The notes beneath the pieces are model-generated. The model saw only the letters and a list, made by a program, of their open reading frames with translations, had not been told where the DNA came from and did no database searches. From the NCBI RefSeq assembly GCF_963576545.1, contig NC_083638.1:22979090-23043089 (forward strand): a DNA stretch of 64,000 nucleotides, read 5' to 3'. The position numbers and the translations under genes are program-made. The DNA is from Limanda limanda (taxonomy: Eukaryota > Chordata > Actinopteri > Pleuronectiformes > Pleuronectidae). Positions 25 through 63,624 of the stretch are shown here, piece after piece. Each line of letters starts with the position of its first letter. The first letter of the stretch is position 1.

Positions 25-12424
<12,400 letters not shown>

Positions 12425-18410: not shown

Positions 18411-18451
18411 CCTTTTACTTTCTTTATTTTTAAGTTGAACATAAACCCACG

Positions 18452-19720
18452 ATGGAGGAGAGTACGATATCAGTGTGGGTCTGCCGGGAAGAGAAGCTCG
18501 TCCTCGGCTTGTCGAAGCGCACGACCTGCGCCGACGTGGTCCAGGTGCTGGTGGAGGAGCAGGACCCCCCGAGCGGCCTCTCCGCGTCCTGCTGCATCGT
18601 GGAGAAGTGGAGGGGCTTCGAGAGGATCCTACCCAACAAAACCAAGATGCTGCGGCTGTGGGTCGCCTGGGGAGACGAGCAGAAGAACGTGAAGTTCGTG
18701 CTGGTGAAGAGCGAAGTGTCCCTGGCGAGCCACGGAGCCCGGAGCGCGGAGGCTCGGGTGGTGCGGAGCCACCAGGGCCCGGGGGGCACCGGAGGATCCG
18801 CCAGGTCCCCGGTGGGAAGCATCTCCCCGGAGAAACAGCGGCGGGTCGTCAGGAAAGCCTTCAGGAAGCTGGAGAAGATGAAGAAGAAGAGACCGAGGGC
18901 GGCGCGCAGGGACGCGTCCTCCGCGGAGAAGATGGAGACTCTGGTTCATCTGGTGGTGTCCCAGGACCACACGGTCCGGCAGCAGGTCCAGAGACTCACG
19001 GAGCTGGACGCGGAGATCGAGACGTGCGAGGCCAAGGTGCATGTGGACAGAATCAAGAGACACGGAGTCAACTATGTTCAGGACACGTATCTGGTGGAGG
19101 CAGCCTCCAGCCGCGAGGAGGACAAACTGTGTCCACCCGGGACTCTGGTGAAGCTGGAGGAGTACGTGGTGCGCTGTGAGGAGGTGCTGAGGCTGCACCA
19201 GGAGCTGGAGGAGCAGGAGGCTCAGGTGGACATCATTACGGCGCAGATCCAAGAGGAGCTGAACCACCGCTGGATGCAGAGGAGGAGAGAGGAGCAGCGG
19301 CCCGCCGGGGGACCACAGAGCGCCCCCTGCCGCACGGACACAGACACTACAGCAGAGGACGAGCTGCTTCTGGAAGGAGAGAGGATCAGAACGCAGCTAG
19401 ATGCGAGCTGGTACATCGGTCTGCGCCTCAACACTGACTTAGAGGCTCTTAGGAGCGATTTAGAGCTGAGCCAGGAGATTTGTGATGCGAGGGAGAAGGA
19501 GATGAGGGATTTGCTGGAGAAAGTGAACACTTTGGACATGGACGAAGGGACAGGGGTGATGATGATGATGAGCACTTTGGAGAGGAAGAGTGAGTGGGTG
19601 GAGCAGGCCAGGGGTCTGTCCAAAGCTCTCAGCGTGAACGACGACGACTCAGACACTGGATTAAGTTCCCTGCACAGTCAGGACTCAGACTGCCAGACTG
19701 TGTGGGAGTCACTGGTTTAA
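18452..19720 (+). CDS. rassf10: Ras-association domain family member 10 (RASSF10)
   Basis: A single uninterrupted frame of 422 residues, as expected for the intronless RASSF10 gene; human is about 507. N-terminal RASSF proteins are scaffolds linked to mitosis, cell polarity and growth restraint. Residues 1-95 are the RA domain: ISVWVCREEKLVLGLSKRTT, then CIVEKWRGFERILPNKTKML and RLWVAWG. The basic motif KQRRVVRKAFRKLEKMKKK follows at about 129-147. A coiled-coil half includes METLVHLVVSQDHTVRQQVQ, HGVNYVQDTYLVEA and LNTDLEALRSDLE. The C-terminus DSDTGLSSLHSQDSD...ESLV is a family signature. The shorter length reflects loss of low-complexity inserts found in mammals. It lies about 6 kb downstream of tead1 on the same strand, as in human. 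ATG 18452 fits the family start (short acidic lead before ISVWVC). Confidence 0.97.
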   Translation: MEESTISVWVCREEKLVLGLSKRTTCADVVQVLVEEQDPPSGLSASCCIVEKWRGFERILPNKTKMLRLWVAWGDEQKNVKFVLVKSEVSLASHGARSAEARVVRSHQGPGGTGGSARSPVGSISPEKQRRVVRKAFRKLEKMKKKRPRAARRDASSAEKMETLVHLVVSQDHTVRQQVQRLTELDAEIETCEAKVHVDRIKRHGVNYVQDTYLVEAASSREEDKLCPPGTLVKLEEYVVRCEEVLRLHQELEEQEAQVDIITAQIQEELNHRWMQRRREEQRPAGGPQSAPCRTDTDTTAEDELLLEGERIRTQLDASWYIGLRLNTDLEALRSDLELSQEICDAREKEMRDLLEKVNTLDMDEGTGVMMMMSTLERKSEWVEQARGLSKALSVNDDDSDTGLSSLHSQDSDCQTVWESLV

Positions 19721-20345
19721 TATTGGACCCAGAGTCCTTCAGCTGTTTGTCATTTATCACTGCTTCAGTCTCAGGGATCTTAGTTACTCTGAAGTGAAGG
19801 AACATTACATTTCCACAGGGCAGTGACATGGACCTGAACCCATCTGGTTTTACTTTGCTCTTGTTTGTTTGTTTGTTGGTTCATCAGCAGGTTTATGCAA
19901 AAAGTACAGAACTGATTCACAACACACTGGGTGGAGGGGAGTTGGCTACAAGCACGAGCCAAAGAAAAAACATTTCACTTCACTGTGGATCTGGTTAAAG
20001 AGGTTGATCCAGGATTGTTTCTTCAAACACCTTCCTTGACATCAATTTCTCAGGAAATATGGATTTATACATACAAATACATATTTGGTGTCGATATCTA
20101 AGATTTTGTAACATTAAGTGCAGAATATAAGTCCACTTCGCTTGTCTTCTTATTTTTCTATTTTTGTTTTTCTAAGAGCAATAAACACGTGGATTTGTAC
20201 GGCATCCCAAAAATCCCCCATATGTCCCTGAGTTTTTATAACATCCATCTTAAACCAGTTTAAGAACAACTACAGTTTTTTTTTATAACACCAATTGTTC
20301 CTCAAAGCTGTTTTTTTGTATAAATAAAATAAAATAACAGTTTTG
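19721..20345 (+). other. rassf10: rassf10 3'UTR with two polyA signals (predicted)
   Basis: AATAAA occurs at 20180-20185 and at 20323-20328 (within taaataaaataaaataac). No other gene reads through here. I place the end near 20345 from the second signal. Confidence 0.6.
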
Positions 20346-21547
20346 AATGTTGAGTTCATGTGTCCCTCCAGTCTCTTGTTAATAATATTTGACCCCTGCA
20401 GCAACGTCAGAGAGGACACGAGACTCAAGAAGCTGCCAAGACCGCTTGATCATTTCTAAGCTCAGAGACAGGCAGACACAACATACAGTCAAACACTGTT
20501 TATCCTGCAGATTATCAATGTCTCCGTTTTCCCTGTGACCCAGACACTGTGTGATAAATACAACCTCTCTGCTGTGAATCCTAAAGTCATAATAACATGT
20601 GAAGTCAAAACAGTGACACCAAGCTCAGCAGGATGAGTCACAAAGCAGAAATGACCTCGGTCTCTCTCAGAGGATAAAAAGTGACATTTCACACAGAACA
20701 GCTGCTTCGTCGTTGCTGCTCCTGAACCTGGACAACCTCACAGAACCTCGTTGAGGTATTTTACACAAATCAGAGTATTAAGGGGTTTTAAGGCAGCCTG
20801 CACACAACCTTCATATTTTAAGTTTAAAGAAAAAACACACTGCAAGATTCATCCAGAAATAAACAGATCACTTGAGGCTTTGCAGGCAGAGTGAAAACCT
20901 TCAAATCCACAGAGTCAGGAACAAATTACATCGAGACTAGTTGTATGTCAACGTAGGAATTAAGTGTGTGTGAAGGTTTTGGTGACAGAATATTTTTACA
21001 ATCTGCAGACTTTCCTTCAGTCCCTCCTCGCCTCACCTCTTACTTCTGACATCCCCTGAGCTGCTGTGCTCTGTGCTTTTTATTTAAAGCTCTGGTGATC
21101 TGACAGGTCACCGCATCTTAGTGTTGATATTTTCTGCAAAATTAAGGATTCTGTTTATCAGCCAAGTTACAAACGTATAGAATACAACCGTCCCTAAGGG
21201 AAAATAAACAAATAATAAACCGCTCTTATGTAAAGCTTTGAAATGATATTATGGCCCACGCCCTTTAAGGATGATAAACTTAAAGGATCAGACATCTGAT
21301 GATACCACAGATCCTCTGTCAGTGTCACAAGATTCATTATGTCTCTTTAGTTGTCAGTTATATTCATTCAGTGACACATTGGCCGCCAGCTTATTTTTAG
21401 CGCCTCACCCCTCCCTGCTCTCTAGTTACTTTATATACAAGTGTCTCTGATGTGTTCTTTGCAGTTTGGTTGACAAAGTTCAATTTGATTTTAGTGTTGT
21501 ATCATGAAAAGTGCCAGACCGACTCTTCTTTTAAAATGCTACAAAAC

Positions 21548-21819
<272 letters not shown>

Positions 21820-22888
21820 CTGGGTTTGATCTGTAGGCTTGAAACATCATCCGAGTCCTTTCACATAAACACTTGTACTCTGTTTGTACAGTGAAGTGCA
21901 GTAGATGGATTCTTCTGATATCTATCATTAAAAGCTAAAGAAATAATGTTGTTGCTGATTCTCAATCCTAAACTGTCGGGTTGAAAAGGTTTCAAGCGTC
22001 AGCACCAGAGAATTAACAACACTGAAATAGTATAAGGTTTCCTCCCTTGATAAACCCGCCCATGTGTTGCTTTGCAAGCGAACACACAGTGATACGCACG
22101 ACAACTGTAACATATACATTGCTGCCGTCATCAGAGTTGTATAGCTACTTAATAGGTGAATAGAATTATTCAAAACCACAGAGAGAATAAAGGATGAGCA
22201 GAGAGTTTTCTCAGCATATACAGTGACTGAGAGGAAAAGAAGATGTTGCATAACTGTGTGTGAAGATCTGGGGATCATTAGTTTATAGTGTGTCCCCAGT
22301 GAACACAAGAAATCGTTAAAATTACATTTTACCCTCTAAGCACTTCTATTTTCCAGAGATTCAGTGAATCAAGTTTAATAATTATATGAAAATGAATTAA
22401 TTGAGAAACAGGCTTTCCACAGTAACGATAATACACAAAGATCAGAAAAAGTCAAAGCTAGCATGCCCTTCAAAATACTCATTTAATGTATTTTGTCACA
22501 TAACCAGAATTGGAAGGCTGATAATACACATGAGGCTAACGCTAGGTTAGCAGCATTTCTACACATCTGAATTTTATAAGAAGCATACAACGTATATTTC
22601 ATCTGATTTTCCAACATCACTGAGGGAAAGCCAACTTCAATAAATAACAAACATTAACATAGCAATGACAAACCGGTCCCAGAGGTGTCTGTTCTGTTGT
22701 ATTTCATGCAACGTGTGTTGTCAAATCGATTTCTCCATTCGCATTTGCTGTGCTTATTTGTTTGTGTTTTCTTTCAGTAGCAGTGCGTTGAGGAATCATG
22801 GCTTCTGTAAACATGGCTTACAACTAGATCAAAATATTGATTTGACGTAGAGCAACAACAGACGGACACAATGCCAACACCAATATGT

Positions 22889-23210
22889 TTAAAGGTTCAG
22901 TGTGTAGAATTGAGTGACATCTAGTGGTGAACTTAAATTTTGCCGCTGAATCCCCCTCACCTCACCCTCTCCTTCCAAACATGAAATAGAAAATGTGGCA
23001 GCCTTCAGTTGTCATTAAAACTCAAAAGGTGTTTAGTTTGTCCAGTCTGGGCTACTGTTAAAAAACATGGCGGCCTCCTTAGGGAAGACCCTATATGTAA
23101 ATATATAGATTTAGATGAAACACACTGGTGAAAACATCACTAGGATTTTCTTACATTCAATTCCTGCCAATAGATCCCTTTCACCTAAGTCTTACACACT
23201 GAACCTTTAA
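22889..23210 (+). mobile_element. TTAA-flanked MITE (piggyBac-like termini)
   Basis: The left end is TTAA plus AGGTTCAGTGTGTA and the right end is TACACACTGAACCT plus TTAA. The terminal inverted repeat is therefore 14 bp with a TTAA at each side, the typical target of piggyBac-like elements. It is 322 bp including the TTAAs and has no coding capacity. It carries the phrase gacatctagtggtgaac, common in fish genomes. Older copies are at 11860-12195 (reverse) and 39605-39727 (truncated). Confidence 0.85.
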
Positions 23211-23349
23211 CCCCAAGTCACAATATAAATATGACTTTACCCCAGAACAATCCTGTGGGAATACGGAGCATTTCACTGGCACATCAGTGTCCTGGCTGTC
23301 TCGGTCTAAGACTCAAATTGATCCTCACAACAATAGAAGTAGAATAGCA

Positions 23350-23423
<74 letters not shown>
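23350..23423. repeat. (CA)n microsatellite
   Basis: About 37 uninterrupted CA units, preceded by a trace of the GTGAGGACC repeat. Confidence 0.95.
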
Positions 23424-23427
<4 letters not shown>

Positions 23428-24534
23428 CAAGCCACCTTAAGTGTCTTTGTCCCGTGGATTCAGGACAGCATCATTGTCAAACAAGGGGAAGTGCTGTATT
23501 TCATTCTCTGTGAATGGCAGCCTTCCTCCCGCTCGACGCACACAGCCATGCTCTCCTCTGTGCTCCACTCTCATGTGGCTCCCTTTTCATCTGAGGAACA
23601 TAAATTAACTTGACCTGATGGGAATAAAACTTTATCTTGCATGTGACAAGTGGCGGCGTAATACAATATACAGGATTCTCAGAGGAAAACGGGACAGTCT
23701 CGTTCTTTGCCTTTTGTTTCAGAGGCGCAGTCTGTGTGGAGCCTTTTTCCTCAATCACTGAATTTTAGGTTTTAATAAGCTGAGTGTTCCCCGGACTCTG
23801 GAGCTGTTGAGAAGATTTTCAGGAATCTTAAGGGTCCTTCTCTTGAAGCTTTTCACTGCGCTGGCCTGATTTAAAACACAAAAGGTTTTCAGGAATGTCT
23901 CTAATACATCTGAATATTTCGTCTCAGAGCTTCCCACAGTCCGTCTGATAGCTCCTTTGTCTCTGTTATCACAAAAGTTCATCAAAGCTTCTGTCTTTGA
24001 TTACAACTCTCTGGCTTGTACTGAAACATGTATAACTCACATCCGTGTGCACACTAACAAAAACATGTCAGGCTCTGATAAAGAAAACGTCACAGTCTTT
24101 GTCCGGGGGTCATGACGGGGTTCATGGGTCAAGTTATCAGGGGTTAGAGTTACTGAAGCATCTGACTCTCTCTGCCGAAGGGGTTGTGGGGGTGACCGGT
24201 GGGGGGGGCAGTGGCCGAGAGAGGCAGCACACTTTGCGCAGCAGGACTCTGACTCTATGGACAGAGAAGAGAGTTTCCTGTGGAGGGAGCAGGGGTCTCT
24301 GCACGGCCTCTAAATCATGACGTCACCTTAGTTAACACCAGAACGAGCTGAAAGTTTCCATGGTGTGTTTGAAATGCTGATGGTTAGGATTTCTGGAGAG
24401 TTCACCAAGTTTGACTTAAGACTTATAGAACACTTTAATGCTGCATTGAATAAAATCTAACAGCAGCTTTACGATAAAGCAGCGGAAATAAGAAGCTATG
24501 ATGGAAAACCAGTCGTGACATTAGGATCTGGACT

Positions 24535-24614
24535 CAAACACTTCACCCCCCCTCCATCGACATAGCGCTGAGTTGATGAGTGAATTTTCATTTTTGGGTG
24601 AACTATCCCTTTAA
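24535..24614. mobile_element. solo right arm of the long-TIR MITE
   Basis: The segment caaacacttcacccccc, ccatcgacatagcgctgagt, then tgatgagtgaattttcattt, gggtgaactatccctttaa matches the right arm of the element at 16807-17180, including the terminal TTAA. No matching left arm is nearby, so it is a deletion derivative or a truncated insertion. Confidence 0.75.
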
Positions 24615-25639
24615 GCCCTGCGGACATATAATCACTTATATGCAATGTTCGACAGTTCCATATTTTTCTTCTTAACACTCTCTATCAAATACAAATACAT
24701 TTGTATAGTTTGTATATAATTGTATCCAATTTAGAGACCTGCACCTGCATGAATATTCCAGAGAATTAAATAGCATCCACTGTGCCTTGATTCACGTTGA
24801 TTCAAGTCACACGACGATAGGAAAATAGGTGGAAACAACCTGTGTCACTGTTCTAATAAATAACACACAACCCTAGCACACAAAATGAATGAAATGATTA
24901 TCAAATTCTCGAAATGCTTTCTGATTAACTTTGTATAGACTGATTAGTCGATGAATCACTTCAGCTCCACTGCTGCAGGTACTTGAGCAATCTGCCATTT
25001 CCATGTGAACTTTCAGGTCTAATAACTGTCTCTGTCGCGTTTGGCCTCTTCTACAGTGAAACATGTCAACACCACATCAAACTGCTGTCTGGAGGAAAAG
25101 TCACCATGTCAAATTAATTACACTGAATTGTGATTTTTTTTTTCTGTTGTCAAAGCAAATTCTTTAAAATTCAGGAGGGGAAAAAAATGAACTTATTTCA
25201 ATGGCAAACCTGCCCGAGCTCTCTAATCCCCGGAATGTGTCACTCTGTGCCCCTGGCCGCCTTTGTTCGGCCTCCGAGAGTGATCTGCCATGAAGTCACT
25301 AATGAAGGTATTGACTCGAGCGCCAGGACTTCAATACCAGGGCTGAGGTGTGAGCCACTCAGAAAGCACTTTGCCTGCTGTTAACAGACTGGGGCCGCCA
25401 GTGTGCGCTCATTAGACCTCATTGTGCTAGTGGCAGGTGTGTTAATCCTGTAAGGCTGGGTGCTGACCCCGGGACCTCATCTGTGGGATACTGTACAGCC
25501 TCTCTGTGAGCCACTCAAGGTCTGTCGCCTCCTGTAGAAGTCGCATAGCCCAGATCTGTCACCAACGGGCTCATTACCCTCCGATAAGTTTCCTCGGAGG
25601 GGCTAGGTGCCGGTTTCCGGCTGCTTGGAACTAATTCAT

Positions 25640-25870
25640 TTAACCACAACATTTTGAACATCGACCTATCTAGCAACGTAAAAGGAAGTCCAAAAAATGC
25701 CTGGTTCACAGTCCTGATCAGCACCAAATTTAATGGGTTCTTTCTTAAGGCATAAGGAATCTTTCCACCCAGTTTCATGGTAATCTGTCCAGTAGTTTTT
25801 GCGTAATCCTGCGTGCTAACACACAGACAAACAAAGCAAGACTAAACCACAACATCCTTGTGGAGGTAAC
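25640..25870. repeat. fish dispersed-repeat tail
   Basis: The phrase agtttcatggtaatctgtcc, agtagtttttgcgtaatcct and acacacagacaaacaaa, ending in tccttgtggaggtaac, is a very common fish interspersed motif. Its parent family is not identifiable from this fragment. It has no coding content. Confidence 0.6.
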
Positions 25871-26394
25871 AAGAGAGCAAGAAGGTTCAGTCCTGACACA
25901 AGGTGAGAGTGTGGAAGCAGGAGGTCTTTGAAGATATCCGATCCTTCGATCAACAGTTTTAATGTTGTACAAATCCCCAAATCACAACTGATGGAATGAC
26001 CATCAGTATAGGACAATATTTAGCTAATATTGCTAATACTTGTGTAATGCCACTCTGAGAGTTACAAAAATGTCCCTTCTTTTGTTCTCTCTATCCTCTT
26101 TCTTCTCTTGGCTCCCTCGCCTCCTTTTTCTCCTCTTTCCACCATTTCTCCTCTTTCCACCCAACCCTTGGAAGCCCACTGCCCCCCTTTTGGGCAAAGA
26201 GACGTTTTAGAAGTATTTGCTAATTGTGGGAACAGTTGGGTTTATCTTGACAATACATGATAGGGTCTCTGCCCGTCCAGACATACGTATATTAAACAGA
26301 ACGTATTTGATGCGCTCACGAAATTACAGCGTGAAACCAAAACTAACTGGATCAAATTTAACAACGCAATTAAAACCTTAGTTTGGACCATATT

Positions 26395-26640
26395 CCAGAC
26401 TTTCAGGTGTGAAAACACCTGGAAACGGACTTGTTTCAGCAACCACTGGAGTCGCCCTCTGCTGGTCATCTGTGAGAATACAGGTTTCATGTGACTGGGT
26501 ATTCACTTTGCGGCAGCAGCTCTCGTTACTTTCTCTTTTGTCAAACTCTCCCCGTTGGCTTCCCATGGCTCTTTGCCTGGCTTCACCTGGTGGCACAGTA
26601 CAGTTTGAAGTGTTTCAGGATTTAGTGGAGAACATCATAT
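26395..26640. repeat. possible fish repeat fragment
   Basis: The phrase agcaaccactggagtcgccc with 'tctgctggtcatc' and 'ttggcttcccatggc' resembles a dispersed fish element I recall as 'agcaaccactggagtcgcccc...'. The 141-codon open frame that overlaps it (26409-26834) has no known domain and I do not call it a gene. Confidence 0.4.
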
Positions 26641-27324
26641 ACAGCAGCTTCAGGTGGTCTGTGGCAAAGGGCCACACCCGTGCAAAAAGAAAGGAAGCTT
26701 CAAGTACTTCACAGCTCAGTTGTCTCCTCCCAAAACACACAGACATTCTCTTATCGTGCACAACAGAGGACTTCATGGGTGTGCTTGGTGTATCAGTTAC
26801 AGAAAAACTCATCAAGACGTCTGGGTGTTTCTGAAATGCACTAAACCGCTTCCTCTCCACAAAAGTCAATGGATCTCGCTCAAGGCAAAAAGCATAAAGT
26901 CCCTTTCCCCTAACAAATACTGTAACCCACCCACTGCCTTATCACTTTATGGGAAAGTTGGGTCTCACATACAATGCGCATGGATTGTGTTGCAGTATCT
27001 TTGTAGGTTATACACGCACACACACACACACGCACACACACAAACACACACACACACAAACACACACACATGAGTCTGAAACAGGATCAAAACAACACGA
27101 ATGTTGCTGATTATGTTGCACCTGCTAAATACAGTGAGTATTGAAACCTTTATTTATATAAAATAATCTCAATTACACTATATGACATTTAAGCACATCC
27201 TTATTCACAAGAATACAAAGGCTTTCAAGTCTCAGAGAGTCTGCCATTGCATTGTTTTCACACAGGGCTGTTTTTAGTCTGAATGCTTGCTGACCTATGT
27301 TGATACCAATTATGTAATTTTGTA

Positions 27325-27420
27325 GAAAAGCGGACAAAATGGAGGTTGGCCAAATATTCTTATCCAGAAAAGTCAAACACAGTGACTTTCAGTATGTGCA
27401 GGAGCAGAATGGAGCCTCGT
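27325..27420 (+). pseudogene. bmal1: bmal1 relic: bHLH segment (tentative)
   Basis: GAAAAGCGG followed by ACAAAATG resembles codons for EKR(RR)DKM with a 7-nt gap. TCCAGAAAA at 27363 resembles SRK of the BMAL1 bHLH. After it TGACT-T--CAG-ATG--TGCAG follows the codons for LTVLRMAVQ with gaps. About 37 nt between these blocks would be missing. Taken alone this is weak; its order relative to the following segments supports it. Confidence 0.45.
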
Positions 27421-27646
27421 GGTCTATTCGACTTCAGGGTGAAATTTCTCTCCTGCTTTACTCCAACAACTTTCAGGAGGATTTAATGCTGATGAGAAGC
27501 AAATCAAACTCACAAAAATCTGAAGAGCAACAGCAGCTAGAGAACTTCACTTTTAGGTCACTCAGTAAATAACTCCATAGACGACACTGATCCCAGATCC
27601 ATAATCAAACATCACATATCCAGACATTTCAGCGAGGTCTCTGGTG

Positions 27647-27735
27647 AAACCTCACTACACAGAGTGCAGGAACAAACACACAACAGCAGCTGATGCCTTA
27701 GTGTTCTTCTTTTCCTAAGACCATTCATTCTTCTA
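27647..27735 (+). pseudogene. bmal1: bmal1 relic: start of PAS-A
   Basis: CTACACAGAG at 27655 followed by AACAAAC fits the codons of NPYTEANYKP. Then, after a deletion, GCAGCTGATG at 27686 opens AAD-x-x-x-F, matching RAADGFLFVVGCDRGKIL. The Cys codon is replaced by TAA, and ATTCTTCTA stands where ILF is expected. The stop and deletions rule out function. Confidence 0.65.
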
Positions 27736-27779
27736 ACCCTAACCCTAGTAAAAGAAAGATATCTGTGTCCTTGTGGTCC

Positions 27780-27865
27780 TTTGCATCACAATAAAAGTTA
27801 AAGTGAAGCTTTGTCCAAGATTGTTGCTCCAAGGACAAAGAATGTTCCTCATACTGAGAAAATGT
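27780..27865 (+). pseudogene. bmal1: bmal1 relic: end of PAS-A
   Basis: CATCACAA, then TTAAAGTGAAG and TTTGTCC, follow the codons for HPKDIAKVKEQLSS with small gaps. GCTCCAAGG and CTCATA at 27826-27853 follow APRERLI. The frame is broken by indels. Confidence 0.55.
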
Positions 27866-28151
27866 CTTCTCAGTGTGCAAAAAAAAAAAAAAAAAGGAAC
27901 TGCCAGATCAATATATGCAGGCAGGCGAGCACTCGACACTCGAGTGCAAACCTCCCTAATGCGATAAAAAAGTAGGCCCTCTTCTACTTGTTGCTATGGA
28001 AACCAGTGATCTGTGGGAACCTAAACATTGTGAGGACGCCAAACTCTAACAGAAGAGTCTTGTTTACGAATGAGGAATGAATGTTGCCTGGGTGTTGTCA
28101 TTCAAATTGAGACAAGGGTTGAAATATTTCTTGATAGAAGAGACATTCAGA

Positions 28152-28195
28152 GAAGAAGTGCAGCGGCAGATCTGTCACATTCACTCCTCCGGGGC
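28152..28195 (+). pseudogene. bmal1: bmal1 relic: PAS-A/PAS-B linker
   Basis: GAAGAAGTGCAGCGGCAGAT at 28152 then TGTCACATTCACTCCTCCGG translate to EEVQRQI-CHIHSSG. This aligns with BMAL1 KKADRKSFCTIHSTG, less one codon. Six nearly consecutive positions (C-x-IHS-x-G) agree. Confidence 0.6.
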
Positions 28196-28199
28196 CAGA

Positions 28200-31100
28200 C
28201 TGTGTCCAGCTGAATAACGTCTGTGACCAAGTCCACTGTCGAGTCAGTCATGTGAAGGAATAAAATAGTTTGCAGACAAAATATTTGGTGGAACACAACA
28301 GATCACACTCAAATAGAAAACATTTTATTATTGAGAACATATTTGGATACCAGGTTTAAGAATATCTCATATAGCGACTGGGATTCATTCAGAAACTGGG
28401 GAAAAGCACTCTGATAATGTTTCTCTACCAAGGTTTTGACTTTGGTCATAACAGTTAATTTTGCAGAGAATAAATGTGGTGAGTGAGGTGATAAAAAAGG
28501 ACAGGGAGCAGAATACATGCATTCAGCCGTGGATGAGCACGTTAACTCCTGAGATTTTGTTTTGACTGGTATTTCTTTAAAGAGACGAACATTGTGATTC
28601 AGTCTCTTGAATTCAACAGCCACACTTTTCACAGTCGGGAACTTGGACAGACATAACAATGTTTAGTCATCAGCTGATCAAAGTTGCCAGAACCTAATTT
28701 CACCATGACAGCCAAATGTCACAGCCCCAGCAGGATGTGTTATATTTACTCTCCAGTGGTTTTCTTTCAGGGTTTTTCCTTGTGACTCCCTCCTGACAGA
28801 TGGAGCAGTCACATTAGTGTTCATGATAACAATCAGGTCTTTTTCGGGGCTGGATGGAGAATTTCCATCAAAAACTAATTTATCATCCTGCACGCAGGTT
28901 TAAACCAGATATTATACTGTACCATGCAAAATACTGAAATCTATACAGAGCAACCGTATGTTGTATCTTTAGTTAGGCAGTATAGCCCATAATCATGTAC
29001 ACCTAGGATGTCAGGTTTTCATCACAAAAATAACCAGTGGCTGGATTAAAACGGAATTTAGTTAAATGATGCAGAATGGTTCAAGAAAGAAGCCATTAAG
29101 TTTTGGGGCTGATTTGCATCAGGGGGAGGATGTAGGACATTTTTTTCACTGTCTTTATCTTTGCGAGACAGGAAGCGATTTTACAACAATTTCGTTGATT
29201 TCACAGAAAATTATTTGTGGATGTTGCTGGAAAAAATCTGACTGGTTCAGAGAACTGATATTTATCTGCAGCTCCGAATACAAATCTGGATCCACTCTAG
29301 ATGCTTCAGGCCTTTTTTCTATTAAGGGTCCAAACTAATCTCCTTAATATCTGAGTAAGTGGAGACTGAGGCAGTAATCATCAGACACACTGATGCCATG
29401 CAGCTGAAGTACACTCTGTAAACATAATTACATTTACACAGTAGTTATATTCCACTGTAGCAGAGAATCCCCCTTGTATTTGATGATTGATATGACATGG
29501 CTCAGTCAACACACACAAATGTGCCCATTAGCGCATTTAGTCTCATGTTTCTTTTGTCTGACTCTGACATTTGACCTTTTGCATAGCTGCCTCGTCTCTG
29601 CTTTCACATTGTGCTGCTCGGCTTTTGTCATTTTTGTTGATGTTTTCAACAATACAAATTGTTTCTATGGCAATTCTGTGGTTCCAGTGGACTGACAGGA
29701 AAGCTGAATTAGAAAAATAAAGTTATATTGAGCTGCATACGCAAAATATTTATAGTCACTCTGTTTACGAAGATGCTCAGTCATCCAAGTTATGGGATAT
29801 TTACAAATATCAAAAGGCATCAGACAACTGGATGACATGAGACAAATCAAATACCAATGCCTCCAGTGATGACATTTTTTTAGTACAATAGCAAGTACAA
29901 ATTGGCCTCGACTTAAAGTATTATTTGTACTTTTATGAATAGCTGTTAAAGATTTATTGTCATGGGATAAACCACCTCGAGATATATTATCTTGTTTTTA
30001 ACAAACACTTACAAACAACACAGTACAAGGGACAATAATATGGAACACAAGAGTTAAAAAACAACAATGAGAACAAACACGAGAACAAAGTGGACAGAAA
30101 GAACAAAAGACAAAAATTACAAACTCAGACGCAACATAATCAAAACACTAGACACAATCAAAGTAGAGTAATTAAAGATCCTTTGAAATAATAATACGAG
30201 AAATCATGGAAAACATGGATCATCGACCTTGTTACTGAAAACACTCAATTTTTTAAAACTGAGACATTTATTTTGAATAACCTAAATGATCAATTATGTT
30301 ATTCATTCATATTTGATTTGGGCAGATGTGTCTCAACCACAAAGGGCCTAAGGTTTTATGCTGTTCCATTGTGAGCTTCTTCACTTTTTCCTTGAACACA
30401 ACAGATCAAAGCCTCAAGTGGACGTTCAAGACTCTGTTCCTTTATTTGTTTAATGTTCGGCTCTCACATGGTTTTCACTTAGCTTTGATCTTTTGTGGAA
30501 ACAAACATACTGTAGCCAAAGTGTATCTCTTTTTAATGTGCTGTAAAACTTCCTGTTAATGAAAGCAAACAACACTACTGATAATACTTGCATTTGTTGT
30601 ATTTGTTATAAGATACAAAAAAACTATAGTAAATTACAGCCTGTGAGTATTAAAATGACAATATGACTAAATTATGATAGTCACAGAAAATGCTTTTATT
30701 TCAGGGTTCAGAAATTACAGCATTAAAACAGAACCCACGTGTTTCATTCGATTTCACTCATGTCGGTATTTGGTGCACTGACACTTGATTCCCCAGAAAG
30801 AGCAGATGGTGGGATTCAGTTTAATAAGGTGTAATGTTGCACGTTCACATCTCTCAGGCTGGGTTATATTAAATTAGAAGACACCAGAGCCTGTTCTCAC
30901 CCATCTGTTAAAGAATGAGGGTGGAAAGCGTAAAAAAAGAAAGAAAATCAAACTTATAGACGTCCAGAGTGTCTGATTGAAACCAACAAAGAAATGAACT
31001 GGTCTGAACCCAGTGTTCTGTGTGGATGAACTGGGGTGACCCTGGTTATTATTACATCCCTCTGATCCACTTATCAGTTGTATGAAGGTCGTCATCTTAC

Positions 31101-31960
31101 TGCAGCATTTGTTTTCTAATTAGAAATAAAGCCAGATGACATTTCTTCCTCCTCTCTTCTATTTATTTTCTTGACCCATTTAAACATGTACTGTTTTATT
31201 TACTGAACAGTAATGTGCATAAATAACAGAATTGTGCCATATTCAGCTGAGACATATGCTCCAGTCTGACAGATCACACTCCAGATGTTGTGGGTGTAAA
31301 TGAGAGCACGAGGCAAAGTGTTGGTGGTGTAAGCAAACTGTACGTGACCAACGTTTAGAGGAGGATTCAAATGGAAGACGTTTAACATTTTACTTAAGTA
31401 GGAGTACAAATAAATAGACAAAGATGTACTCAAGTGAAAGTTACAATACCTACTTTTGTACTTGAGTAGAAGTAAGCAAATACTTTTTAGTATATATGTA
31501 TTTAGTATTAAAAAAAAAGAACTTTGCAGAGAGTAATCTATTTCCTAATGACATTCAAGTACATCAGTATCACTTAGTCTCAGGGCAGGCTTTTCCAAAT
31601 CCAATGCACGAACATTTTATCTGATCCTTTTTTTCACTGTAATTGAGTTCCAATGTGGCATCATCAATTTGTCTGTTGCACTCTGCTGCCCCCATATGGT
31701 GAAAAGAGGCTTTTCATGGCACATAATTGTGATCTCTCATGAGGTCTTATGAAAATAACTTTTGATTTCTTCTCTCTTTTATTTAAACTTGAATCATCAG
31801 TTTATAATCAAACAACAACACTAGACACATATTATGACATTATTGTTTTAAAATTATAAAATTAAAATAGAGAAGCATTCCTCATCATTCTGAGACATTT
31901 TCTCCTCTGTCGTTATCATTTTAGTAACAAACTCAGATAAAAACATGACCTCAACAACAA
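28200..31960. other. interval within the bmal1 relic
   Basis: 3.8 kb between linker and PAS-B segments, where human ARNTL also has introns. AT-rich. Open frames on the minus strand at 28309-28659 and 28678-28893 and on the plus strand at 29066-29338 match nothing I know. A run like tgtacttgagtagaagtaa at 31455-31475 is a common fish repeat motif. Confidence 0.5.
31385..31515. repeat. fish 'acttgagtagaagta' repeat relic
   Basis: Phrases acttaagtaggagtacaaat, ctcaagtgaaagttacaat and tgtacttgagtagaagtaa are typical of a dispersed fish repeat. A related trace occurs at 41690-41760 (aggacttttatttttcactg, tggtattagtacttgtgagt). Confidence 0.6.
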
Positions 31961-31964
31961 CAAA

Positions 31965-32085
31965 TGAGATCTGAACCTTTTTTAAGGGCAACGGCCATTT
32001 TGGTTCACTCACCTCATGTTGGGCAGGGAACATCATTTTCATGAAGATGACAAAAAGCAAAACTTGATGAACTGTTATTGCAGGC
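31965..32085 (+). pseudogene. bmal1: bmal1 relic: first half of PAS-B
   Basis: Codons 31985-32002 read RATAIL, exactly as in BMAL1 DQRATAILAYLPQELLG. CCTCA then TGTTGGGC, with a 5-nt deletion, stands for PQELLG. TTTCATGAAGATGAC at 32037-32051 gives FHEDD against FHQDD. TTGATGAACTGTTAT then resembles LAECH with indels. The frame is lost twice. Confidence 0.75.
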
Positions 32086-32257
32086 ATTCACAGTGTCTTC
32101 ACTCAAAGTCAAGGGTCCACGTTCAGTTATTAGACTGATGAGTGTGAAGGTCGTCTGGTCTCCTCTGGTGGAATTACAGAGCTCTGCAGTTCATCTTACC
32201 TGTGGACACTTCATCCATTATTTGCCCTGGTGCTCCTCTGTCGCTGTCTGCTGTGAG

Positions 32258-32406
32258 GGCTGCAGACGAGAGAGGATCAATACCAGCTGCTGTGAGTTCA
32301 AGTTAAAAGATGGATCATTCATCACATTAAGAAGCTGCTGCTTCAGGTTTATGGACCCTCGGACCAAAGAGGTTGAGACTACTGTCTCTTCCAATAGAGA
32401 GGTGAC
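32258..32406 (+). pseudogene. bmal1: bmal1 relic: second half of PAS-B, best preserved exon
   Basis: CTGCAGACGAGAGAG (32260-32274) encodes LQTRE. A 2-nt deletion shifts frame and INTSCCEFKLKDGSFITLRS continues, followed by F-x-FM-x-P-x-TKEVE and VSSN. By eye about 30 of 47 residues equal human BMAL1. Two tryptophans constant in BMAL1 (in RWF and NPW) are now Cys and Arg. The donor gtaagt at 32407 is intact and in phase 2, as expected after ...STNTVV. The conserved donor with a broken frame indicates a once-spliced exon, not a processed copy. Confidence 0.9.
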
Positions 32407-32845
32407 GTAAGTAAAACTGTCTTTTTCTATCCCGATACAAAATCATGTTGTATCAATCTGTTCCATGACATACTTTATTTTATCCTGTCATTACTTACTG
32501 CTAGGCATTGATTGCTATACATTTTGCTTTTATTTAAACAAAAAATAGCAAATAAGTTGTTTTAGCTAAAACGTCAAACTTGAGTTGACACGATAGGAAA
32601 AGTAAGACTCACCAACCTGAGCAGGAACAAAATGTATCTGAACCAAATGCCGGCATCCACAAGGTACATGTTGAGATATATTTGACAGGATAAGACATGT
32701 TTCATCACCTTTCCTCTGGTCACATGGCCGACCTGACAGCAGCTCTAATCAGAACAGAGTTAATGAAGATAAACGCTGAGCTCTGATGTTGCAGCTCTCA
32801 AATCAGAGGCTGCAGATTAATCATCCAGTATCTTGCTGCCTTCAG

Positions 32846-32910
32846 GTATCTGCAATCTGGATCTTTAAATATTCAGAGACTTCAGAGCTCTTCCCCAGAC
32901 GCTCTCAGAT
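32846..32910 (+). pseudogene. bmal1: bmal1 relic: exon after PAS-B (very tentative)
   Basis: After an acceptor-like ctgccttcag, GCAATCTGGA resembles the codons of ANVLE with a 3-nt gap, and CTCTTCCCCAGACGCTC resembles TFPQLT. The match is short and could be chance. It is kept because it falls in the expected place between better segments. Confidence 0.25.
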
Positions 32911-33142
32911 TCATCATATCTGGGATCAACCACGTGTGACTCTATCATGGATCAAATATACAAAGGTATTTTTTCATTTTGATGTCTTTATTTCATGATT
33001 TTAGGTTTTATTTTTAAACAACCATTTCAAGCTTTGCACAAAAAGATTTTGACCACAACAGCCTGTGCTCTGCTTAATATCTTGGCCTCGGGAGGAGCAT
33101 AACATCACATATCAGATCCAGTCAATGACTACATATCCCATT

Positions 33143-33195
33143 ACAAGATTCAGAGACATCTGAGAGGAATCAACTGGAGATCATGACACTAAGTG
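33143..33195 (+). pseudogene. bmal1: bmal1 relic: C-terminal KIGRMIAEEIMEIH segment
   Basis: ACAAGATTCAGAGACATCTG then AGAGGAATCAACTGGAGATC follows, with small indels, the codons for GKIGRMIAEEIMEIHRIR. The phrase AGAGGAA-TCA--TGGAGATC is the clearest part. It lies about 500 bp before the btbd10 stop codon on the other strand. Confidence 0.55.
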
Positions 33196-33691
33196 GTGAT
33201 TACTGATTTTCTCCATGACCAGAAAGTCATACTAGTGAGTCTGGCTTTCTTCCCCCCTAAGCACATTTAGTAAGTAGGCCACCCAAGACAATCAAACTTA
33301 AAGTAATCATCAAATTAAAACCTGTGTGAAAACAGTGACACCACAAAGTGTGCTCAGCCAAACGTATCAAATTAAGGTACAAGAACATTGTAAATAATAT
33401 GTTATTAATAAGTGTTTTACAGATTTTTTTCCCAAACAGAAAAATAAATTCCTTTGGTCAAGTAAAAAACAAAATTTAAAATAATAATAGTGAACTTTTC
33501 CTTTCACCAGTCTTTTATCCCTCATGATTCTTCTTGTATAGTCTTCCAGGTTCTTGAGGCTCTAAGGCTGCAAATGAGGTGTCAAGGCAATATGGTTATG
33601 GTGCCCCTGGCGCTCCACACTGCAGCATGCTGGGAGATGGACTAGAAGAGTAGGAAAGGAGCAGAGGCATTGAAAGAGGACCAGAGCACCG

Positions 33692-39429
<5,738 letters not shown>

Positions 39430-42471: not shown

Positions 42472-42940
42472 CTATGTGGTCTGATAAAAAACAGGAAATA
42501 AGTTGTTTTCAATCCTGTTGGATCCAAGAACATCATTTGGGAAAACGTTTTTAGTATTTGCTGTGGGTCCGTGCTGTGGTTTGACGCTGGCAACAACAAT
42601 GTCCTTTAACTTTTCCTGAAGCCAGTCCTGCCTGTCTCCAACTTGTTTGTGTTCCCGAACATTGTGCATGAGCTGTACCTCACTGATGGTTCTCTTTCTG
42701 TGAAGATAGAGAACACCACTGTTAACTTTTATAATCAGTACTTTGTTTAAAATAATAATATTATTATTAATGATAATGATGATAATGATAATAATAATGA
42801 TATTTAATATAACAAGGGTTTATTTTGCTCTGTATAGACACAAACTCAAAATGTCTTTACCTCAATGGTTTAGCCTCTATTTGCAAACTGGTGAGAAAGA
42901 AGATCACAACCAACGTTTCCAAGTACCTCAAGGAAAACAT
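42472..42940 (-). CDS. pth: parathyroid hormone precursor (PTH)
   Basis: PTH is a secreted peptide that raises blood calcium through PTH receptors. Coding exons on the minus strand: 42940-42861 (26 codons plus 2 nt) and 42697-42472. The 101-residue preprohormone has a hydrophobic signal peptide (MFSLRYLETLVVIFFLTSLQ), a short pro-segment ending PLRKR and a 72-residue mature peptide beginning TISEVQLMHNVREHKQVGDR. The receptor-binding part QDWLQEKLKDI follows the PTH(1-34) pattern. The intron interrupts the pro-sequence just before KR, as in mammalian PTH. The mature form is shorter than the 84 residues of mammals. It lies 2.3 kb upstream-to-downstream from btbd10 on the same strand, the human order. 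I cannot tell pth1a from pth1b. Confidence 0.96.
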
Positions 42941-48817: not shown

Positions 48818-49811
48818 TAGGGCTGCAACTAACGACTATTCTGATAGTCGATTAGTCACCGATTATTGAAACGATTAATCGACTAATCGGATTATGAATG
48901 ACACAAATTCTCAATTGCTCTTATTTAGCAAGCAGCTTTTAAATTTAGCTTGAGGTTGTTCGAGGCATGTGATGACTGAAAATAAAGGCAATAAATATTG
49001 ATACTTCATTAAAAAAAAATGTCTTTTAATAAACTTTGTTTCATATAAGGGTACTGTTGACACAAAAGCAAAGACAAATCAAGTTTTTGTCCATTTAAAA
49101 GCAAGGACAGGCAAAGTGCTAATAAAACAAATAAATTAAAAATCAAGTATTCATTTTTCCTGTTAACAAAAATGACAGGGAAAGTAACAGCAATAAAAAC
49201 ATCAACAAACGAAACTACAGTCTTCTGACTAAATAATTGTGATTAAAACAAGACGTTTGTCAGGCAATAGGATAACATAACGCTTTTAAACTCGTTAATA
49301 AAAAGTTTAAACCATATTTTTGTAATGGATGCTAGAATCCTGCGAGCAGGTATAAACGTGTATATATAACATCTGACAGAGGCAAGTCCGCATCGTCTCC
49401 GTTACGATGTCACACGTGCCTCCTCCTCCTCACATGCGCGTGTCCTGCTTCCATGGAGAGCAGGTCGGCCGCACAAATACTGCAGGTAGTTTTTCTCGGG
49501 CTGTTACGGGTGAAGTTCTCCCGAACTTTTTACTTCCTGGTGCGCGACTGCGCGCGGCAGCGGACGCCGACATTGGTCCATGTTTCGTCGCTATTGCACA
49601 TGCGCGACTTTCAGAGATAGGAAGGAAGCGAGATGGCTCACTCCTCGGGTACTTCCATCAGCACCTCCGGTAAAACGCCGTTTAGTTCCGCTGCGCGGCA
49701 CGAGAAACACGCGCTATGACGTCACCAACGAATCATCGACGGGTAAATTCGTCGGCGACTATTTTGGTCATCGATTTTTGTCGACTACGTCGACTAATCG
49801 TTGCACCCCTA
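48818..49811 (+). mobile_element. hAT-type MITE, copy 2 (intergenic)
   Basis: 994 bp with the same ends as copy 1 and its own 8-bp target duplication ctgatcat (48810-48817 and 49812-49819). By eye it differs from copy 1 at only two places: T/C at 37933/48833 and an extra C near 49004. Both copies therefore inserted recently from one source. Confidence 0.95.
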
Positions 49812-52685
49812 CTGATCATTAACCTGCTTGGTTAAATGAAAATGGAGTCAGAAAAAAAAAAAACAGGCATGAAAGATAAACTGATGCAAAATTATTACCC
49901 ACTCCCGCCCCCAGCGTTTTGCTTGAATCGTCTTCTATTATCACTGCAAATTCTTTACTTCATATCACTTTCATGAACTTATTCTAAAATTCCACTTCTT
50001 TTGGGCTCCATTAACTGACCCATCAAATATTCAATACTGAGCCTTTAACCACATTAAAAAGTAACACTGAGCTTTAACAACTCCATTAAGAAAGCTATGG
50101 GCTGTGAGTGAAGAGTATTCATTCTATTCAAATTACTCCTGCAGCCACATGATTCATCAGAACTGCTGCTGTTTTGGTCATTTCATTAATCTGTGGTTAA
50201 TACTTATGCGTGTTTATATATGTGGTACACAAATATCAATATATATATATATATATATATACTCTAAGCAAAAAGAAGAGTTACTCATTATCGAGAGTTG
50301 GATAATGAGTTCTGATAAAAAGTTTGTTGCTGTTCTCCACTTTTAATCACAGTTAGAACCAGGACGTTAATGTTATGGATTATTTTATTATCTTTTTTTT
50401 TTACTACAAATTCATTTTTTGGGCTTCTCTACCCAATATTGAGTTGGGAGATGTCTTTTATGAGAAGCCACAGCAATTGTTTGATGTATTTGTCCAATAA
50501 AGAAGCTCCAGGTAGAGATTAATGTGGCCACTGTGACCTGTGACATTACAATACTCAGATTCCTTGATATCAATAAAACTGCTCTGTTCTGTACGGCTCA
50601 TCAGCCTTGTCTCCCTCATGCATCTGGTATTGAGATGAATACTTCTGCTTAAGAAAAAACTTCATTCGTAAGATCTCTCCCGCAGTTAGCATATATTTGA
50701 CCCCTTATCTTATGTATATTTGTAGTGCTTTACCCTTTAGAGACGCAGTCTTTATGGAAATACTTTACTTTCTGTATCACATGTTTCTCCTCTTTTGTTT
50801 TCATTTGTTTCACATGTTCACATTTTTTCCACTGTACCTACGTGTAATTGTCAATAAGAACAAGTAACGTGTTTATTAATTCTTGAATCATACCACAAAT
50901 CACAGTTGAAAGGACAACAAACTTGACAAACATTGGCTCCCGTGATACTGTCTGACATTCTGCATGTCGACCTATTCACAATGTAAACATGTCCACATTG
51001 AGGACAGTGAGACAGGAAGTTAGAGCCAGCAGCTGGTTAGCCTTGGAAAGGGATCTTCTAACCTACTGCAGAGTCTAAAACTAATTGGAACATGGAAACC
51101 TTCCCATTTAATATGTTTCATTTAGTCCGTTTAAACAATACATTGGGATTTATGTGCTGGAGTATTCTTGTTTCCAGTCTTTATGCTAAGCTATGCAAAC
51201 TGTCTTTGGGTGCAGCTTCATTCATTGTACTTGGCAAGAAAGTACTTCCAAAAAGTTGAACTTCTCCGTTGATATTACACAAAGTTGGTGTTAAGTATTT
51301 TCTTCTTTTTTGCTTTGAATATATTGTAAGAACCATTGTTTACTAGAGGATTTATGTACAATGCCCAGTAACCTCTCACCAGCTGACTTCCACTGTACAG
51401 GTGTATTGCACATAAATACACAAACGCATTCTCACTGCCACGTTCTGCTCTACTGCAAGTGTTGCATTTAATCCTCACAGTAGCATTGTGCTTCTATAAA
51501 ATACACAAGTACAGAACAGCATGAGCAGATGCATGGCATGGTTTGAGATAAAAAGAAAAGACCTCAAGACTCTTTTCGTTGGTGTTCTGCATCACATATT
51601 GATTTTCAGAGATTGGTCCATTGCCCATGACCCTAAATGAAATTCATGGGAGTCCAAATGAAATTCATGAGAAAACACAAATGCGTCCAGACTCTAATTA
51701 GTTGTGATCAGTATGCTCTATTTTAGAAGATGATTTTAATTGATTTTCTATCCAGTCATGCACTGCTAGATTTTGTTTTTCAAATAAACAAAATGTTTTT
51801 GCCTAAAATGCTATATTTATGTATTTTAAGCACATATCCTATTTTCATGCAACTTTTTAAGTTAAAAGTAAAGGGTCAGATTTAATAATTATTTTCGTAA
51901 TAATGTTGAACAAAAGCAGAGCTCAGACAAAAGGCCTGAAACCTTCATTTTGTCGAACATGAATAATAAAGCTGGCAGATGTTCAGATTCAGACACTTCA
52001 CACAGTAGCTCCCATGGAAAGATATCGGCTCATGAGATCCCATTGAATCCAGTTGTTCGGGTGACACTGAGTTTACAAAGCAAAACTGAATAAAGTTGAG
52101 AGCAGATGCTGCCAGAGTGTGATTCATCGTTTTGAATTCCCACGCTTTTGATCACTGGGACATTAATGAATTTTAAAGGACACACATCTGATACTCTCGC
52201 TGCGTTTACAGATTCAATAAACACAGCTTCCCCACACGTGCCTTGCAGAGCACACCTTCGAAAAAATGGATGCAAATTTCTTCTGAGGATAATTTACTCA
52301 TAAGGGGTCGTTGGGTTTGAAGTTGCCAAATGAAAACCTGACACATTCCTTTTCAACGGGAAGGGAAACTTCTTTCTAGTCGATGAATATTTAATGCAAG
52401 GAAAGGCTGCTTTAATAAAATAGCGCACAGGCCAGTCAAAGACATGTTGGACCAAGAGTCTTGGGGGAGCTTCTGTTGCGACTGTGAAAGAAAAGTATCA
52501 GCCTTTGAATACTAAAAGGGACAATGACAATGCAGAGAGAAAGACCAAAGGAGAGGAGGAGACATTAATTTTGTGCCTGTAAGTGAAGCAACTGCCACTT
52601 TTCCACAGGGTCATTTTAAACTCACAACTTTCGGCTGTCACTACATCCACCTGTCATGTAGTAATAAGAGCAATTAAAGTGTGGT

Positions 52686-52840
<155 letters not shown>

Positions 52841-56995: not shown

Positions 56996-56999
<4 letters not shown>

Positions 57000-57089
<90 letters not shown>
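57000..57089. repeat. (CA)n microsatellite
   Basis: About 44 uninterrupted CA units. Confidence 0.95.
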
Positions 57090-60025: not shown

Positions 60026-60349
60026 AAGACATCAGTTAATGGTTTGTAATTTTAATGGAAGAATTTTAATGATCAAGTTCAACCTCATCAGTTCTAATTA
60101 TGCGCTGATTATTGAGATGTGATTCTGGAAATGTGTGTAAAGCCACGGACAGGGACATGTTTGCCTGCAACACAGGTGTTAGCATCAGAATAGATATGGC
60201 AAGGCTAAAGTCGTTTATTGTGTTTAATTTCACTGAGTGTGTCTGATGCATTATCAAGGTTGTCATCGAAGGTTGGTACTTATCTTTCCGTGTGTCTTTC
60301 CAGCAGATTCAGATTTTTACAGTCCAATTGTTCCTGACACTTGGAAGAC

Positions 60350-63624
<3,275 letters not shown>

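Follow-up and report, generated by a model that had tools for sequence, protein, structure and literature searches.

Probable relic of the clock gene bmal1b in the ancestral slot between rassf10 and btbd10

In the accessible text of the sources on bmal1b (arntl1b), the gene is listed for zebrafish, pike and salmonids (PMC8674837), and neither TOGA nor Exonerate detected it in Sander lucioperca or Sparus aurata (PMC12154703). The gene is presumed absent from the perciforms studied there, which is called consistent with other Acanthomorpha, and the notothenioids studied in PMC10298351 are all described as being without it. The accessible text of PMC12154703 contains neither 'flatfish' nor 'Pleuronect'. 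Our literature search found no described bmal1b relic in the text available to it, and the accessible parts of PMC8729910, PMC7941933, PMC6611576, PMC4062345, PMC6723592 and PMC4558521 hold nothing on one. As far as these texts go, the loss of bmal1b in spiny-rayed fishes has so far been a failure to detect the gene, and a relic in the expected slot would be positive evidence of it.

Here we analyse a stretch of 64 kb (the window; 40% G+C, zero N) that holds the interval between rassf10 and btbd10 (the slot). We consider it very likely that this slot contains a non-functional relic of bmal1b, the copy derived from the teleost duplication, in its ancestral rassf10-btbd10 position. The evidence comes from one certain and one very probable piece of the PAS-B region, from the damage found in and around them, and from the location of bmal1b in two berycimorph fishes.

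The slot and its neighbours

The human gene order, which we take to be TEAD1-RASSF10-ARNTL-BTBD10-PTH, makes 19718-33694 the presumed counterpart of the ARNTL position. A preliminary description of this DNA had claimed the same order, and the neighbours placed by Pfam agree with it, with the PTH-like exon falling below the Pfam cut-off (Table 1). The rassf10 product shares 90% identity with a protein of Pleuronectes platessa and 84% with one of Paralichthys olivaceus, the next matches reaching 76% at most, which points to a pleuronectid or a closely related flatfish as the source of the window. NCBI classifies P. platessa in the Percomorphaceae, Carangaria and Pleuronectiformes. At the opposite border the segment 33695-34048 (minus strand) was assigned by reading and is presumably the C-terminal exon of btbd10; Pfam gave no relevant match for it. 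A search of the window with Rfam at the gathering threshold gave 0 matches.

Past the end of btbd10 the plus strand carries TTTATT, which is AATAAA on the minus strand, at 32474, 32529, 32987 and 33007, and given these sites the btbd10 3' UTR could run close to exon A. The second copy of a 997-nt repeated element has CTGATCAT on either side, an 8-bp duplication. Duplications of 8 bp are typical of hAT-type elements, and this element is probably a recent non-autonomous DNA transposon.

Table 1. Positions of the features discussed, numbered from the first letter of the window
Feature	Position	Strand	Basis or remark
TEAD exons, two (YAP-binding domain)	8439-8780, 10376-10657	+	Pfam YBD 46.6, 52.1 bits
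PAS-A-like piece, 21 codons	13613-13675	+	between TEAD exons and rassf10
rassf10	18434-19717	+	intact single-exon ORF; Pfam RASSF8-10_RA above cut-off; left border of slot
Exon B, very probable bmal1 relic (first part of the PAS-B exon before exon A; 18 codons)	31985-32038	+	codon-likelihood scan
Exon A, bmal1 relic (second half of PAS-B)	32267-32406	+	tblastn; PDB sequence search
btbd10, part	33695-37687	-	right border of slot
btbd10 exon with start of BTB_3 domain	37184-37687	-	Pfam BTB_3 37.4 bits
997-nt element, two copies	37918-38913, 48818-49814		99.8% identical, 10.9 kb apart
Parathyroid-hormone-like exon	42475-42819	-	Pfam Parathyroid 19.5 bits, E 0.0016; cut-off 22 not reached
Kinesin motor	60338-61783		Pfam E 5.7e-119
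Long CA/TG dinucleotide arrays	4448-4652, 21551-21817, 23351-23423, 52689-52838, 56999-57088, 62983-63124		

Two pieces of the PAS-B region

When the 64 kb were searched by tblastn with human BMAL1 and nine ray-finned-fish Bmal1 proteins, the sole significant match, at 32267-32407 on the plus strand, was returned by all ten queries (29-31 identical of 46-47 residues; E 1.7e-11 to 6e-13). The E-value was 8.4e-13 for the percomorph Bmal1a cluster P0077, with 31/47 residues identical, and 5.4e-12 for human BMAL1. Compared with the PDB sequences, the exon A peptide preferred BMAL1 (3.1e-14) to ARNTL2 (8e-9), cycle (0.005) and ARNT (0.7-0.9), and this preference identifies it as a piece of bmal1. 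Pfam returned DUF4590 alone for exon A, and its 18.7 bits fall below the cut-off of 27. The exon is open for 47 codons up to a donor-like GTAAGT at 32407-32412, and its start may lie near 32257, where an upstream extension needs a gap and gains only about 2 bits. From its sequence, then, exon A can be regarded as shown to derive from a bmal1 gene, in the slot and on the expected strand.

Exon B directly precedes exon A in protein order and lies 228 nt upstream of it, where it reads RATAILVHSPHVGQGTSF against RATAILAYLPQELLGTSF. The codon-likelihood scan gave it 31.8 bits, a score equalled by none of 200 local shuffles, which peaked at 19.0, or at 21.9 when gaps were made cheap. When the exon to which it belongs was used as a 44-aa query, no score above 21.9 bits arose in 8 pieces of real DNA. 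When the whole protein served as the query, the score of exon B was equalled by one of 200 shuffles of the slot and by 1 of the 8 real-DNA pieces. Since this score can be reached by chance in that way, the weight of exon B comes from its adjacency, strand and order. Its in-frame translation is RATAILVHSPHVGQGTSFS*R*QK, and the six codons after exon B include two TGA stops in the same frame (32042-32044 and 32048-32050). Exon B is thus very probably the start of the exon that precedes exon A, interrupted by in-frame stops. A continuation in another frame (FHEDD...) was equalled by 3-10 or by 33-58 of 300 shuffles, depending on the stretch tested, which is suggestive only of a frameshift within exon B.

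A dead copy of bmal1 between rassf10 and btbd10 had been proposed in the preliminary description, and exon A (through tblastn and the PDB search) together with exon B bears this out. The tblastn search with fish Bmal1 that was proposed there gave the significant match at exon A, with exon B, at an E-value of only 2.5 by tblastn, in the right order.

A comparable score was also found outside the slot. The PAS-A-like piece of Table 1 reads LLFIVGFSRGRILYNCESVCK and aligns to FLFVVGCDRGKILFVSESVYK of PAS-A with 32.4 bits (tblastn E 0.13), and none of 120 shuffles of the surrounding 14 kb equalled it. Its flanks show no similarity, with at least 284 and at least 148 of 300 shuffles reaching their scores. 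The piece, on the wrong side of rassf10, may be a chance match or a displaced scrap of bmal1 PAS-A. It matches the score of exon B at a place off the slot, so about 32 bits alone are no proof, which bears on exon B as well, and we count the piece among the points against the preferred explanation.

The state of exon A bears on whether it could have been kept by selection after co-option, for instance because it became an exon in a transcript that is not annotated or because it acts as a regulatory element next to the 3' end of btbd10. Its 47 open codons and its GTAAGT donor survive where otherwise only part of exon B is recognisable. The likelihood over a grid of divergences (d) peaks at 0.2 for exon A with three queries, and at 0.3 for exon B. 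The chance that exon A has no stop is 0.45 at d 0.15 and 0.39 at d 0.20, and that it has no indel 0.08 and 0.03, respectively, at the assumed indel rate; neutral openness without an indel would thus come to about 1-4% over this range. This makes the openness of exon A mildly unusual, and together with the good donor we count it against a dead relic, tempered by the fact that exon A was picked out because it is the best preserved piece. Co-option itself we regard as very unlikely given the substitutions in exon A and the in-frame stops in the neighbouring exon B. Of 178 Bmal1 proteins examined, 170 could be aligned; 16 of the 47 residues depart from their consensus, and five of these departures, both tryptophans among them, are at sites identical in 170/170. 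The forced changes also fall on codon positions 1 (9/47) and 2 (8/47).

Decay or deletion of the remaining exons

The preliminary description had read seven or eight plus-strand segments in this interval. One certain and one very probable PAS-B exon are what stand of these, and the others are at chance level. For the bHLH, PAS-A, linker and N-terminal half of PAS-B, which had been placed in 27325-31984, the best matches in that interval were equalled by 50, 26, 23 and 28 of 60 shuffles; for the top-scoring collinear chain of the interval the figure was 23 of 60. The KIGRMIAEE segment that had been noted in 27.3-33.2 kb is likewise inseparable from chance. Downstream of exon A, in 32408-33694, KIGRMIAEEIMEIH was not returned as a match. 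The best match there was IQRLQSSSP (32871-32897), equalled by 7 or 25 of 200 shuffles according to the gap cost and by 3 of 60 in another test; as a candidate bmal1 exon it stands out weakly and is inseparable from noise.

The slot-wide exon search used a frameshift-tolerant codon-likelihood scan with three fish Bmal1 queries. With both exons masked, the three queries scored at most 21.5, 24.2 and 23.9 bits in the slot; shuffles averaged 21.8, and 19 of 200 reached 24 bits. Three further candidate pieces proved inseparable from noise, namely 23514-23591 and 24147-24215 (both start of PAS-A; 20.7-31.7 bits by gap cost and query) and 28149-28193 (REEVQRQICHIHSSG; 16.0 or 21.7 bits). Disabling damage is therefore seen in two respects, as the other exons do not rise above chance in the slot and in-frame TGA codons follow exon B.

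The upstream exons might nevertheless still be present over 20-30 kb, decayed past recognition and not deleted. This would fit the collinear chain over 19718-31984, which was equalled by 1 of 60 shuffles and, for the three queries, by 2, 0 and 8 of 100, as well as the PAS-A-like stretches at about 23.5 kb and 24.15 kb, which reach 28-32 bits with cheap gaps. However, unrelated intergenic DNA of the window gave chain scores of 69.8, 65.2 and 61.4 against 66.7, 77.0 and 63.7 for the slot. When the protein was permuted in blocks, 8 of 150 versions equalled the observed value. Because unrelated DNA of the window chains similarly, the collinear-chain test was not used as evidence.

Simulated decay also speaks against the persistence of unrecognisable exons, which on balance we consider unlikely. 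The Centroberyx protein was divided into 16 pieces of 39 residues, and 0.12 indels per substitution were assumed. At d 0.20, 0.25, 0.30 and 0.40, a mean of 15.8, 15.0, 13.4 and 7.9 of the 16 pieces kept at least 27 bits. Given that two (perhaps three) pieces are seen where the simulation expects most of them, the simpler explanation is that most of the gene was deleted. Under these assumptions most of the bmal1 copy has probably been deleted, unless exons A and B evolved slower than neutral.

Identity of the lost copy

The exon A peptide is identical at 30/47 residues to Centroberyx 1b, at 31/47 to Chaetodon 1a and at 31/47 to Diretmus 1b, and cannot tell 1a from 1b. The identity of the lost copy was therefore approached through its location. 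In Centroberyx gerrardi, 1b (P0098) and rassf10 (P0296) are each on a contig of 38,969,015 bases, and in Diretmus argenteus 1b (P0142) and rassf10 (P0270) are each on one of 56,394,213 bases. We took equal contig size to mean the same contig, by which linkage, not adjacency, is inferred. Percomorph 1a is represented by the cluster P0077, which comprises 451 sequences and takes its name from Chaetodon auriga. The longest contig of this cluster measures 29,774,467 bases and falls short of the contig that carries rassf10 in C. auriga (33,648,271). This indirect evidence places 1a and rassf10 on different contigs in Chaetodon, and 1b with rassf10 in the two berycimorphs. The surviving percomorph bmal1a would likewise be on another contig, as indicated indirectly by other fishes. 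The relic described here lies beside rassf10 and btbd10, as expected of the 1b slot, for which the berycimorph linkage comes from contig sizes.

A tree of 34 proteins groups berycimorph 1b with the 1b of Hypomesus, Esox and Oncorhynchus and with Aplochiton (99/95), and places the percomorph proteins together with Esox 1a (100/96). The deep forks between 1a and 1b are weak in this tree, and two sequences sit oddly, Lepidogalaxias lying among the percomorphs and a Pygocentrus protein named 1a within 1b. In the same tree, the branch of Diretmus P0142 measures 0.16 against 0.006 and 0.015 in Centroberyx, in a protein that is otherwise very conserved; this 1b copy may be eroding in the deep-sea Diretmus lineage, as if constraint were already relaxed. 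Among the best 120 of 3178 matches to Centroberyx 1b, the acanthomorph rows named 1b are three berycimorph one-sequence clusters, and the nine rows recognised as percomorph are all named 1a; each cluster carries one name, and P0137 is unnamed. Centroberyx and Diretmus belong to the Berycimorphaceae in the NCBI taxonomy.

Location also bears on whether the fragment could be a later insertion of the surviving bmal1a, as a duplicated piece or a retrocopy, and not a resident gene. The peptide, being equally close to 1a and 1b, would allow this. The insertion is nonetheless highly improbable in our view, given that the fragment has the expected orientation in the slot probably occupied by berycimorph 1b, which shares its contig with rassf10, and that the exon pieces are about 230 nt apart, a gap that a processed copy would not have.

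For the lost copy, bmal1b is the most likely identity. In the history that we favour, the second bmal1 copy of the teleost genome duplication would once have occupied the rassf10-btbd10 slot, a deletion would have taken most of its exons, and exons A and B would have drifted, with the clock role carried by bmal1a elsewhere in the genome. The distribution of the copies suggests that the loss took place before the percomorphs or early in their history. Together with the full-length bmal1b listed for Centroberyx and Diretmus, the relic suggests a loss that is not shared by all acanthomorphs.

The loss of bmal1b is already known for many spiny-rayed fishes, and in this respect the relic is an ordinary but tangible trace, which could serve as a marker to date the loss across percomorphs. 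The gene missing here is the same as the arntl1b reported absent in PMC12154703 and PMC10298351; in their accessible text those reports describe non-detection and give no relic sequence. The closest intact counterpart is the berycimorph bmal1b (Centroberyx P0098 and P0114, Diretmus P0142), which has the homologous PAS-B exon. Its locus is probably that of the relic, given that 1b and rassf10 share a contig size in both C. gerrardi and Diretmus. The berycimorph proteins are full-length, at 614-624 residues, whereas the relic comes to about 65 codons in two pieces, with in-frame stops after one of them.
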